A stretch of 63,377 bases of DNA from an uncultured Thermoanaerobaculum sp. (lineage in GTDB: Bacteria; Acidobacteriota; Thermoanaerobaculia; Thermoanaerobaculales; Thermoanaerobaculaceae): NCBI GenBank assembly GCA_937934115.1, contig CALHAH010000003.1, positions 40,001 through 103,377 of the forward strand, written 5' to 3'. Made by a program: the position numbers and the translations under genes. The notes under the pieces are model-generated. The model ran no database searches. It saw only the letters and a program-made list of their open reading frames with translations, and was not told the DNA's origin. How positions within the stretch are numbered: the first letter of the stretch is position 1; the number at the start of each line of letters is the position of its first letter. This document shows, piece by piece, positions 1 through 27,346 of this stretch.

Positions 1-199
1 CCGAACCGGGGAGTTACAAAGTACCCACCTAGCAGAACGGTCTGGAACGGCCGGCCATAGAGGGTGACAGCCCCGTATGCGAAAGGTGCGGTGCCTCCCT
101 AATCGGGTACCCAAGTACCACGGGACACGTGGAACCCTGTGGGAATCCGGGAGGACCACCTCCTAAGGCTAAATACGTCTCAGCGACCGATAGCGAACC

Positions 200-246
<47 letters not shown>

Positions 247-482
247 GAGTACCTGAAACCGTTCACCTACAAGCAGTGGGAGGGCTATGCCTGGCAGCAA
301 TGCTGGGAATGCCTAACTGCGTGCCTTTTGCATAATGAGCCGGCTAGTTACTCTCGGCGGCGAGGTTAAGCTTTTTGCGAAGCCGTAGGGAAACCGAGTC
401 CGAATAGGGCGATGAGTCGTCGGGAGTAGACGCGAAGCGGGATGATCTACCCTTGGCCAGGATGAAGCGTGGGTAACACCAC

Positions 483-514
<32 letters not shown>

Positions 515-729
515 GCTTGGATGAGCTGAGGGTAGGGGTGAAAGGCCAATCAAATTCCGTGATAGCTCGTTCTCCCCGAAATAGCTTTAGGGCTAGCCTC
601 GCGTGGTCCGTGGCGGTGGTAGAGCACTGGATGGGTTAGGGACCTTAACCGGTTACCGACCCCAACCAAACTCCGAATGCCGCCAACGTCAAGCGCGGGA
701 GTCAGACGGCGGGGGATAAGCTTCGTCGT

Positions 730-766
<37 letters not shown>

Positions 767-805
767 CAAATGACAGCTAAGTGGGAAAGGATGTGGGGTT
801 GCTGG

Positions 806-868
<63 letters not shown>

Positions 869-1661
869 TAGCGACCCTGTGCCGAAAATGTAACGGGGCT
901 TAAGCTGTCTACCGAAGCTGCGGATCTGTGCGACCTGCGGGTCGTGCAGGTGGTAGGGGAGCGTTCCATGCGCGGTGAAGTCAGACCGTGAGGACTGGTG
1001 GAGTGCATGGAAGTGACTCTGCCGGCACAAGTAGCGATAAAGCAGACGAGAACTCTGCTCGCCGGAAGCCTAAGGTTTCCTGAGCAAGGTCAATCCGCTC
1101 AGGGTGAGTCGGTCCCTAAGGCGAGGCCGAACGGCGTAGTCGATGGGAAACGGGTTAATATTCCCGTACCACTCTGTCCTCGTTATCACGATGGGGTGAC
1201 GCAGAAGGATAGGCGGGACTGCGATTGGAAGTGCAGTTGAAAGCGTGTAGGCGGGGGTGGTAGGCAAATCCGCCGCTCCGTTAACGCCGAGGCGCAATGA
1301 CGAGTAGGCGTAAGCCGAAAGCCGCTGATTCCACGCTGCCGAGAAAAACCTCTAAGGAGAGGGCAGGGTGACCGTACCGCAAACGGACACACGTAGGCAG
1401 GGTGAGTAACCCAAGGCGCTTGAGTGATCCCCCGTGAAGGAACTCGGCAAAATGGCCCCGTAACTTCGGGAGAAGGGGCGCCTCCTGCCGTGTAGATCCT
1501 TGCGGTCGAAGCGGTGGGGGGTCGCAGTGAAAGGGCCCAGGCGACTGTTTACTAAAAACACAGCACTCTGCAAACGTCACAAGCGGACGTATAGGGTGTG
1601 AAGCCTGCCCGGTGCCGGAAGGTTAAGGGGAGGGGTTAGCCGCAAGGCGAAGCTCTGAACT

Positions 1662-1705
<44 letters not shown>

Positions 1706-2331
1706 TAGTCTCGCTAGCCTTAGTAAAATCGAACTATATGCGGGAAACTCCTCAAAAACCTGGCGGTACTCGTCGGTGTCACGCACTGGCAGTAAAAATC
1801 CGCGGGTCAAGGGGACAATCCGCAGGGAAGACCTGGCGCGAGCCAGGGACCCTCAGAGACTTTACGTTCGAGGTCAGCTATGAACCTTGACGCTCAGTGG
1901 GTAGTGGGTTTTGTGGACGGCGAAGGCTTATTCCATGTGGGAGTGTTCAGACATCCGGAAATGGCTGTGGGTTTTCAGATTCTAGCGGAATTCACCGTGG
2001 TGCAGCATGAGCGAAATGTGGCTGTGCTTTATGCGTTGAAGAAGTTTTTTGGGTGTGGCGTTGTAAGACGCAATCACGGTGATCGGATGGCATATCGCGT
2101 TCGGAACCAAGAACATTTGCGCGAAAAGATTATCCCGTTCTTCGAAAAGCATCCCCTCAAGACCAAGAAGAGGCAGGATTTCATGATTTTTCGGCGGGTG
2201 CTTTTAATGATGTCTCGTGGTGAGCACTTGACACCCGAAGGCCTCGAGAAGATTCGGCGCATGGTGCAACGTTCCAGTGGTGGCTGACCAAGATAAAGTC
2301 CGGCCCTTCTGGAAACAGAAGGGGTGAACCG
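1706..2331 (+). mobile_element. group I self-splicing intron in 23S rRNA at position L1931
   Basis: The exon sequence CCTAAGGT (ending 1705) continues as AGCGAAATTCC only at 2332, so 626 bases are inserted after E. coli U1931. Group I hallmarks are visible. The exon end CTAAGGT (1699-1705) pairs with an internal guide GCCTTAG (1717-1723), giving the required U-G wobble at the 5' splice site, and the intron ends in G2331. The P element lies around 1737-1751, Q (AATCCGCAGGG) at 1817-1827, R (CTCAGAGACTTTA) at 1852-1864 and S (AAGATAAAGTCC) at 2290-2301. P4 can form between TGCGG 1739-1743 and CCGCA 1820-1824. A P9-like hairpin, CCCTTCT/AGAAGGG, lies near 2304-2322. The endonuclease frame sits between R and S, in the P8 loop. 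Introns at this same site are known in Thermotoga 23S genes. Confidence 0.95.
1880..2287 (+). CDS. intron-encoded LAGLIDADG homing endonuclease
   Basis: A 135-residue protein with a single LAGLIDADG-type motif near the N-terminus (WVVGFVDGEGLFHV, about residues 8-21) and the downstream beta-strand and helix pattern of single-motif enzymes. Single-motif members act as homodimers, cleaving an intronless 23S allele so that repair copies the intron in. The conserved acidic residue of the motif (D in VDGEG) is present and the frame is intact, so activity is plausible. The ATG follows the intron R element by about 15 bases. The frame ends two bases before the S element, so it occupies the P8 loop without disturbing the catalytic core. 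Cleavage activity is inferred; the family assignment is firm. Confidence 0.92.
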   Translation: MNLDAQWVVGFVDGEGLFHVGVFRHPEMAVGFQILAEFTVVQHERNVAVLYALKKFFGCGVVRRNHGDRMAYRVRNQEHLREKIIPFFEKHPLKTKKRQDFMIFRRVLLMMSRGEHLTPEGLEKIRRMVQRSSGG

Positions 2332-2375
<44 letters not shown>

Positions 2376-2818
2376 AAACGATCTGGGCGCTGTCTCCGCG
2401 GGGGGCTCAGCGAATCTGAAGTACCGGTGAAGATGCCGGTTACCCGCACCAAGACGGAAAGACCCTGTGCACCTTTACTACAACTTGTCACTGGACCTTG
2501 GTGTGGTATGTGCAGGATAGGTGGGAGGCTGTGAAGCCGGGGCGTCAGCTTCGGTGGAGCCGTCGGTGAGATACCACCCTTACTGCACTGGGGTTCTAAC
2601 CCAGGGCCGTAATCCGGTCCGGGGACAATGGCAGGTGGGTAGTTTGACTGGGGCGGTCGCCTCACAAAGGGTAACTGAGGCGCCCAAAGGTCCGCTCAGG
2701 CTGATTGGAAACCAGCCGGAGAGTGCAAAGGCATAAGCGGGCTTGACTGCGAGACCCACAAGTCGAGCAGGGACGAAAGTCGGGCTTAGTGATCCGGCGG
2801 TCCCGTGTGGAAGGGCCG

Positions 2819-2870
<52 letters not shown>

Positions 2871-2887
2871 AGTTCACATCGACGGCG

Positions 2888-2974
<87 letters not shown>

Positions 2975-3034
2975 TGAGCTGGGTTTAGAACGTCGCGAGA
3001 CAGTTCGGTCCCTATCTGGTGCGGGCGGAGGACA

Positions 3035-3067
<33 letters not shown>

Positions 3068-3135
3068 AGGACGGACGGACCTCCAGTGTACCGGTTGTCG
3101 CGCCAGCGGCAGCGCCGGGTAGCTGTGTCCGGAAA

Positions 3136-3172
<37 letters not shown>

Positions 3173-3360
3173 CCAAGATCAGGTGTCCCGGGCGTCATGC
3201 CCCTAAAGGCCCCTGGTAGATGACCAGGTTGATAGGCGGGAGGTGTAAGCGCGGTAACGCGTTGAGCTGACCCGTACTAATCGGCCGTGCGGCTTGACCA
3301 TACTTCCTTCCCAAACGCTTGCTGTGCCAACCCAGTTGAGTTGTCCAAGGTGTTGAGGTT

Positions 3361-3480
<120 letters not shown>

Positions 3481-21507: not shown

Positions 21508-22027
21508 TGGGGAGGGTAGGCGCCCGCCCAGCACCAACTTGACGATGTTTCGCCCGGGCGGCCGATGCAGAGGGGGGGATCGCGAGCAGTTTTGTCCTGA
21601 GGCAAGCATGGTCAAGTTGGTGCTGGGAGGAAAGTCCGAACTCCAGGTGGGAGCACGCTGGGTAACGCCCAGCCGCGGTAACGCGAGGGAAAGTGCCACA
21701 GAAAACATACCGCCCCGCATCGCTTCCCCAAGGGAGGGTGACCTCGCCGATGGTAGCCGAGGAGGCTTTTGCTGGCGTCGTCGCCCGTTTTGGGGGGTGG
21801 TGCGGGGTAAGGGTGAAAAGGTGGGGTAAGAGCCCACCGCTCGGCCGGTGACGGCCGGGGCACGGCAAACCCCGTGCGGAGCAAGGCCAAATAGGGGGAC
21901 CAACGGGCCCCACCCCCGGTGGCGTCAGATGCGCCGGGTCCCCGGGTAGGCCGCTTGAGCTGGCAGGTAACGGCCAGCCCAGAGGAATGGGTGCCCACGA
22001 CAGAATTCGGCTTATAGCCCTCCCCGG
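21508..22027 (+). ncRNA. rnpB: RNase P RNA, type A
   Basis: The catalytic RNA that matures tRNA 5' ends. Conserved blocks are present: GGAGGAAAGTCC (21626-21637, P4 5' strand), AAAGTGCCACAGAAAACATACCG (about 21690-21712), GGTAAGGGTGAAAAGGTGGGGTAAGAGCCCACCG (about 21805-21840) and ACAGAATTCGGCTTAT (22000-22015). P1 can form between GGGGAGGG (21509-21516) and CCCTCCCC (22018-22025), which sets the ends. A T-run at 22035-22040 may terminate it. At about 520 bases it is longer than the usual 350-420: an extended helix CCAGCACCAACTTGAC/GTCAAGTTGGTGCTGG (21528-21543 with 21611-21626) encloses 67 extra bases before P4, and the P12 region also looks long. Confidence 0.95.
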
Positions 22028-22065
22028 CGCCGTCTTTTTTGTACCGCCTGGGTTAGCGGTCACGG

Positions 22066-25882: not shown

Positions 25883-27346
25883 GTGGCGAACACGGAACAC
25901 GTGAGGCTTTTGCTTTCCGATTCCTGGGACGAATTTCGCAAGCAAAACCCGCGCCTCGTCCCCGACCTTACCGGCGCCGATCTGCGAGGGCAGGACCTGA
26001 GCGGGCGGGATCTTTCCCGAGCTGTCTTGCGCAACGCGGACCTCCGGGGTGCCAACCTCCGTGGGGCTAATCTCAGTCTCGCGGTGGTGGACGGCGCCAT
26101 GCTGGAAGGTGCCAATTTGGAAGAGGTGGACTTTACCGGTGTGCGCTTGGACCTGGTAGCCTTGCGCCAATGTAGCTTGCGCCGTGCCGCCTTCCAGCAA
26201 GCGAGCTTTCGCGGCACTGACTTTTCTGATGCGGACCTTTCGCAAGCTGATCTTTCCCAGGCCAACTTGGAAGGGGCGTTGCTGCGTGGAGCCAAGCTGG
26301 TAAAGGCTGACCTCACCAGCGCCAGCTTGCGCGGGGCTACTTTTGCAGGCGCAGATCTCAGTGGCGCGTGTCTGGACAAGGCTTGGGCTGAGGGCGTCGA
26401 TTTTTCCGGTCTCTCCTTTGCCGGTGCCCGTTTTGCGTCTTTTTACGGGGTGCGCACCAACTTCAACCGTGCCAACTTGGAAGGCGCAGTGTTTCGGGAA
26501 GCCACGCTGCGGGAGGCTAGTTTTTTGGGTGCAAGACTCACCGGGGCCACTCTGGACAGGTGCGACGCCAACAAGAGCTCGTGGGTTGGGGCCGACTTGG
26601 CAGCTGCCACGATCATGGCCTGCGATATGCAGGCCTGCGACTTGCGGCGGGCTAACCTCAAAGACACCGTGTTTACGGCGGTGCAGTTGGCCGCATCTAA
26701 CTTGGCGGGGCAGGATCTGCGCTTCCCCAAGCTCGAAGGCGTGGTTTTGGTGCGGGCCGTACTTACCGGTGCGGTTCTGCGCGGTCTTTCCCTTCCCAAG
26801 GTGCGCCTGGAGCAAGCGCGGCTGGAAGGTGCCGACCTTCGGGAAACGGACCTGGAAGCGGCGGTGCTGGACGAGGCGGTTCTTTCCGGTGCTACCCTGC
26901 GGGGAGCCAAGCTGCGGCAGGCGCGGCTTTCCCGAGTACGAGCGGACGATGCCGACCTTTCCGGTTGCGACTTGGTTTTGGCTGATCTCGCGGGTGCCGA
27001 TCTTTTGCGGGCGGATTTGCGGTTTTCGCGCTTGGTGGGTGCCGACTGCCGCCATACCCACATGCAGTGGGCTGACCTCCGCCACGCGGATTTCTCCAAG
27101 GCGGTTATGACCGGCGCCAACCTTTGGGGGTGCCGAGTGCGGGGCACAAAGTTGCCAGCCTCGGCCTTTTACTGGCGGTTTTTTTTGTTCTTGGCCGGGC
27201 TTTTGGTGGCAGCGCGCAGGAAGCGCCAGGAATCCCTGCAGCGCGAGCATCAACGTCGGATCCGAGAAACCGTCAAGTTAGTGCGGGAAATGGAGGAAAA
27301 AGACCCCATTCTCAGACGGGCAGGTACACGCCGGGAACAGCGCTAG
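25883..27346 (+). CDS. long pentapeptide-repeat protein with C-terminal membrane segment
   Basis: A 487-residue protein, about 400 residues of which are A(D/N)LXX-type pentapeptide repeats (for example GADLRGQDLSGRDLSRAVL, GANLRGANLS). These should form a right-handed quadrilateral beta-helix. Near the C-terminus there is one hydrophobic segment (FFLFLAGLLVAA, about 430-441), then a charged helix (KRQESLQREHQRRIRETVKL). It may therefore be tethered to the membrane by its end. Some pentapeptide proteins mimic DNA and protect gyrase, but those are about 200 residues; no such role is shown here. The start is GTG and likely leaderless. Confidence 0.88.
   Translation: MANTEHVRLLLSDSWDEFRKQNPRLVPDLTGADLRGQDLSGRDLSRAVLRNADLRGANLRGANLSLAVVDGAMLEGANLEEVDFTGVRLDLVALRQCSLRRAAFQQASFRGTDFSDADLSQADLSQANLEGALLRGAKLVKADLTSASLRGATFAGADLSGACLDKAWAEGVDFSGLSFAGARFASFYGVRTNFNRANLEGAVFREATLREASFLGARLTGATLDRCDANKSSWVGADLAAATIMACDMQACDLRRANLKDTVFTAVQLAASNLAGQDLRFPKLEGVVLVRAVLTGAVLRGLSLPKVRLEQARLEGADLRETDLEAAVLDEAVLSGATLRGAKLRQARLSRVRADDADLSGCDLVLADLAGADLLRADLRFSRLVGADCRHTHMQWADLRHADFSKAVMTGANLWGCRVRGTKLPASAFYWRFFLFLAGLLVAARRKRQESLQREHQRRIRETVKLVREMEEKDPILRRAGTRREQR

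Follow-up and report, generated by a model that had tools for sequence, protein, structure and literature searches.

The window, by which we mean the whole 63,377-nucleotide stretch of DNA analysed here, begins within a 23S rRNA gene that is interrupted by 626 nucleotides. The locus raises the questions of what kind of element this insertion is, whether the protein gene inside it is a functional part of that element, and from where the element reached its present host.

Insertion site and intron borders

The LSU rRNA match of the Rfam search began at window position 1, the 5' part of the 23S gene lying outside the window, where the upstream sequence reads N. In the covariance search of the window, the inserted region matched the group I intron model RF00028 with 59.5 bits (E 2.7e-13; gathering threshold 50), and P1, P3 to P9 and P10 were all readable. 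The first-pass annotation, which had named the insertion a group I intron and proposed the Rfam group I models as a check, was therefore correct in this respect. As the model includes exon sequence, its match already began at 1673, upstream of the border at 1706, and the exact borders were taken from the exons, with CCTAAGGT ending at 1705 and AGCGAAATTCC starting at 2332. In rrlB of E. coli K-12, CCTAAGGT ends at T1931, placing the intron after the equivalent of U1931 (site L1931), so that the site and borders had been annotated correctly to the base. The insertion had also been located in the heart of the peptidyl-transferase-proximal region; the site, which we take to be helix 71 of domain IV, lies near the peptidyl-transferase centre, not in it. 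The window genome gave a single 23S match and no empty L1931 site, indicating that the sole 23S gene seen is the interrupted one, beside which copies collapsed during assembly may exist. The features of the locus are listed in Table 1.

Table 1. Features of the interrupted 23S rRNA locus, in window positions
Feature	Position	Strand	Remarks and basis
23S rRNA gene	1..3301	+	Exons 1-1705 and 2332-3301; RF02541, 2528.1 bits; blastn against relatives
Group I intron at L1931	1706..2331	+	626 nt, no P2 seen; RF00028, exon borders, K-12 numbering
P1 5' strand, 5' exon CUAAGGU	1699..1705	+	Pairs with 1717-1723; splice expected after U1705
Internal guide	1711..1723	+	1711-1715 for P10, 1717-1723 for P1; P10 read from sequence
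Ribozyme core: P3, P4, P5, P6, P7 5' strand, P3 3' strand	1729..1871	+	RF00028 alignment, fold, pair counts
P3	1729-1734/1866-1871	+	Read from sequence, counted in alignment
P4	1739-1744/1819-1824	+	Read from sequence, counted in alignment
P5	1748-1752/1810-1814	+	Read from sequence, counted in alignment
P6	1825-1827/1850-1852	+	Read from sequence, counted in alignment
P7	1858-1862/2296-2300	+	Read from sequence only
P8	1872-1878/2283-2289	+	Read from sequence only
LAGLIDADG homing endonuclease gene	1880..2287	+	135 aa, in P8 loop; PF00961, 5gkk, model, Foldseek
P8 3' strand, P7 3' strand (2296-2300), P9 (2304-2323), terminal G2331	2283..2331	+	RF00028 alignment, aligned relatives
P9	2304-2311/2316-2323	+	Read from sequence
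5S rRNA (context)	3363..3479	+	RF00001, 111.9 bits

Structure of the ribozyme

The 5' exon strand of P1 pairs with GCCUUAG, U1705 and G1717 forming the U·G pair at the splice site, and positions 1711-1715 of the guide could form P10 with 2332-2336, the initial five bases of the 3' exon. The core includes extensions of P5 and P6a, and P2 was not seen among the helices read from the sequence. Folding of the 5' half (1694-1885) gave -73.2 kcal/mol, compared with a mean of -56.6 kcal/mol (sd 4.54) for 200 shuffled sequences; the value was 3.66 s.d. below the shuffle mean and was equalled by none of the 200. In an alignment of eight sequences, 92.6% of the cells in the named helices were paired, compared with at most 57.4% when the helices were slid along the alignment, a comparison that favours the real positions since the helices had been defined on the window sequence itself. 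P5 and the outer pairs of P1 were the weak spots, with 76.9% and 83.3% of cells paired, respectively. Covariation was found in P3, where both sides had changed at three of the six pairs. None of 500 letter shuffles exceeded the observed number of paired cells, the number of double-change cells or the covariation score; 69 of the shuffles had at least as many pairs with double changes (three), and 414 at least as many further pair types (six). When the introns at L1931 were compared by eye, two types of core were distinguished by an additional hairpin that follows P1 in one of them. The hairpin was present in L005, L013, L014, L044, L046, L047 and L048, and absent from the window intron.

The intron-encoded endonuclease

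The open frame in the P8 loop starts with ATG preceded by GAGG, and its stop codon lies within the 3' strand of P8. It had been described as an intact LAGLIDADG gene, and the product indeed belonged to LAGLIDADG_1 (PF00961, 2.1e-23) with a single motif; a search of NCBIfam assigned no family to it. The closest solved structure by sequence was that of I-TnaI (PDB 5gkk, 1.1e-50). The AlphaFold model had a mean pLDDT of 93.5, with only about the last five residues poorly predicted, and 5gkk_A ranked first when this model was used in Foldseek (3.0e-18, TM 0.94, 59% identity in the alignment). The residues of G-F-x-D-G-E-G were unchanged across 13 aligned rows, and the window protein retained the motif residues. 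The GC content at third codon positions (GC3) was 0.57, compared with a mean of 0.707 (sd 0.020, range 0.651-0.757) for 28 host frames, which were non-overlapping ATG frames of at least 250 codons picked by length.

It might be argued that, in an intron that still splices, the endonuclease no longer cleaves and is in decay, or that it is retained solely as a splicing helper (maturase). The window protein departed from the consensus at five of the 37 columns that were unanimous among the other 14 rows, and these departures included a Met-Asn pair close to the C-terminus. The next highest score was that of L048 (4/36) and the remaining rows scored 0 or 1; as rows with near-identical kin can hardly score departures, the fair comparison is with about five rows. 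With so few comparable rows, the private changes may give a weak hint of relaxed constraint on the endonuclease, not a proof. A maturase-like activity has also been reported for the LAGLIDADG protein of a Thermotoga neapolitana 23S intron (PMC3984707). In contrast, the frame is open, the motif residues are retained and the fold is predicted with confidence, and the end branch of the window endonuclease in an 18-row tree of L1931 proteins (0.41) was similar to that of L045 (0.35). Loss of cleavage thus appears unlikely, and a homing endonuclease remains our preferred reading of the gene. The first-pass annotation had gone further and regarded the element as recently mobile. This is plausible for an open frame with its motif residues kept, but recent movement is something that we infer, and the five departures may speak of relaxed constraint.

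Phylogeny of the endonuclease, the core and the host

In a tree of 41 endonuclease rows, rows from the same site mostly clustered together with their hosts mixed, the groups being L1917 (100/100), L1931 (96/83), L2605 (94/83) and, weakly, L1952 (87/71). The tree was built without L053-L059, L061, L062, L067 and L070-L072, all of which have endonuclease matches; its row L014 'a' is the L1931 copy, and its two L020 labels are interchanged, which affects none of the conclusions. The window endonuclease fell in a 15-row L1931 clade that included I-TnaI (99/99), so that the endonuclease tree suggested in the first-pass annotation placed it among the L1931 enzymes. In the 18-row L1931 tree, it belonged to a clade of eight rows (99/99) together with L002, L045, L046 and L047 from Omnitrophota, and L003, L004 and L006. 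Raw identity alone does not single out this clade, as L044, outside it, was 62% identical to the window protein and L045 and L002, inside it, were 64% identical.

Alternative placements were compared by AU tests, for which the groups were picked after the first tree had been seen. Uniting the window with the L1931 rows of its own phylum, L013, L014 and L015, cost 21.8 log units and was rejected (p 0.008); L015 is interrupted by a stretch of N that truncates its endonuclease and conceals its 5' border. Pairing the window endonuclease with I-TnaI cost 24.8 log units and was likewise rejected (p 0.009); a direct link to Thermotoga is not supported. A tree of the ribozyme core, from which the ORF had been removed and for which the program warned of long branches, reproduced the split of eight rows against five, the five being grouped at 100/99. 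The window joined L045, L002, L003, L004 and L006 at 97/98, and its unity with L013 and L014 was again rejected. As the two trees share this split, the ribozyme core and the endonuclease seem to have moved jointly across phyla.

The tree of host 23S rRNA held 27 of the 28 rows submitted, the partial sequence of L049 having been removed; L047 and L060 were not among the 28. It grouped the window with its own family (100/99) and the Omnitrophota rows separately (98/99). The 23S gene of L006, titled Betaproteobacteria, grouped with Acidobacteria subgroup 2 (100/100), making its title or bin doubtful, and a transfer to Betaproteobacteria is therefore not claimed. With Acidobacteria subgroup 2 in the window's clade, part of the history may have taken place within the phylum. 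However, joining all seven rows concerned, namely the window, L013, L014, L015, L003, L004 and L006, in one clade cost 28.2 log units and was rejected (p 0.005).

Distribution among genomes

Among 39 genomes including the window's own, an endonuclease match was found in three, namely the own genome and two of another genus in the same family. A 23S match was obtained in 8 of the 17 genomes of the family sample. Besides the own genome, three family members were continuous across L1931 and two carriers of an L1917 insertion were uninterrupted at 1931; two family genomes read N beside the 23S end. None of the five family members with a readable site, which represent a single other genus, carries the L1931 intron. 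Within the genus of the window, none of the three genomes matched the empty-site pattern, but this is uninformative, as the end of the 23S gene of G001 adjoins N and G002 gave no 23S match. The L1917 insertions, in L008 and L009, are a different LAGLIDADG intron.

At the level of the phylum, the endonuclease was matched in 12 of 396 genomes, the own genome included. Five of the 396 carry an L1931 intron with an endonuclease: the own genome, G058, G257, G404 (whose 5' side reads N) and G369. These belong to five different families, a scatter that could be taken for old vertical descent within the phylum followed by many losses. Against such descent, both the endonuclease and the core trees reject unity of the window with the same-phylum rows, and the GC3 of the gene is low for this host; we consider it quite improbable. 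The intron was probably acquired sideways from other bacteria, and not straight from Thermotoga. Transfer between distant hosts, as the first-pass annotation had suggested, thus gained support from the trees, the AU tests, the low GC3 and the absence of the intron from the readable family members.

In the sample of the phylum of L002 (titled Omnitrophota), 40 of 237 genomes, including that of L002, matched the endonuclease alignment. Six of these matches were at 2.5e-57 or better, and the weakest, at about 1e-4, may not represent rRNA introns. The corresponding fraction was higher than the 12/396 of the window's phylum. Judged by such matches, rRNA introns abound in Omnitrophota, a phylum that does not belong to CPR. 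The 23S insertions among the loci fetched were located at L1917, L1931, L1952 and L2605. Two endonuclease-bearing 23S introns were seen in single genomes (L014/L025, L016/L024, L005 and L044), at the paired sites L1917 and L1931, L1931 and L2605, or L1931 and L1952. An apparent 1293-nt intron of L049 was spurious, the site of this locus still being L1931. A viral vehicle was also considered; a scan of viral contigs, sensitive to close kin only, gave 30 pattern matches (alignment A1), none of which was a relative by tblastn.

Discussion

The best explanation of the locus is a mobile, laterally acquired member of the L1931 lineage of group I introns that lacks P2 and carries the gene for a single-motif LAGLIDADG homing endonuclease in P8, a reading to which we assign a probability of roughly 0.92. 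It is supported by the RF00028 match, the site at T1931, P1 and P10, the covariation in P3, the endonuclease matches, the trees and GC3. By analogy with the family, the transcript would fold and guanosine would attack after U1705, after which the freed exon would attack after G2331 and the exons would be joined into an intact 23S rRNA. A homodimer of the endonuclease would cut the intron-less site, and repair would copy the intron in. As the trees suggest, the host probably obtained the intron laterally, from a set of related introns that is represented today in Omnitrophota and Acidobacteria subgroup 2.

Intervening sequences that RNase III excises without ligation, leaving the 23S rRNA fragmented, are known from bacterial 23S genes (PMC11270868). 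Such a spacer is very improbable here in view of the covariance match, the guides fitting both exons, the covarying P3 and the use of the same site by group I introns of other bacteria. Although the genome is a draft of 52 contigs, a 23S gene brought in from another organism by assembly or binning is hardly credible either, as the contig bearing the interrupted gene is 103,377 bases long and holds numerous protein genes, and the 23S exons match the 23S genes of family members at 90-96%.

The mobile intron thus preferred looks like an ordinary, well-known kind of element in a little-described host. The first-pass annotation had named Thermotoga and organelles as hosts of introns at this position. 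Both are published, but the list was incomplete: L1931 introns are also described for Simkania and Synechococcus (PMC1995217), and LAGLIDADG_1 inserts at 23S position 1931 for CPR bacteria (PMC11270868). The Thermotoga system shares with the window the site and a single-motif LAGLIDADG protein. The two introns were compared by published sizes, the Thermotoga intron being 698-700 nt with a protein of 162 aa (PMC1995217), both larger than in the window. The introns of Synechococcus and Simkania, as described in PMC1995217, likewise have a single-motif LAGLIDADG protein at this site, and that of Synechococcus is also described without P2. The CPR inserts at 1931, among which we count that of I-ShaI (23IS7), resemble the window intron in site and in their LAGLIDADG_1 protein; I-ShaI is reported to cleave its own site and to form homodimers (PMC11270868), and 23IS7 was equated with position 1931 from the order of the sites listed there. 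The CPR set differs in that inserts are given for 82% of its 23S genes in that source.

The introns of Omnitrophota L002 and L045 agree with the window in site, P2-less core and endonuclease clade; they differ in belonging to another phylum and in their GC contents of 0.44 and 0.42, compared with 0.52 for the window intron. Those of Acidobacteria subgroup 2 (L003 and L004, and also L006) share the site and the core type, with 61-64% endonuclease identity; in contrast to the window, the first ATG of their frames is found further upstream, within the ribozyme core, giving a protein of 151-160 aa. A literature search of limited depth found no report of an L1931 intron in Acidobacteria or Omnitrophota. 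With the present analysis, the known hosts of endonuclease-bearing L1931 introns would come to include Omnitrophota and five families, probably of Acidobacteriota, and so extend beyond thermophiles, organelles and CPR. The locus also exemplifies movement between phyla, the ribozyme core and the endonuclease seemingly having travelled together. For annotation, inserts of this kind may hide or split 23S genes. We mention as a speculation, one that we think doubtful, that probable Acidobacteriota and Omnitrophota form a little-described pool exchanging 23S introns at L1917, L1931, L1952 and L2605 that fed this host, in whose copy the endonuclease is now turning from cutting towards decay or assistance in splicing.

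Elsewhere in the window, a class A RNase P RNA was detected at 21571-22030 (250.4 bits), and a frame of 487 aa at 25883-27346 contained abundant pentapeptide-like repeats by eye.
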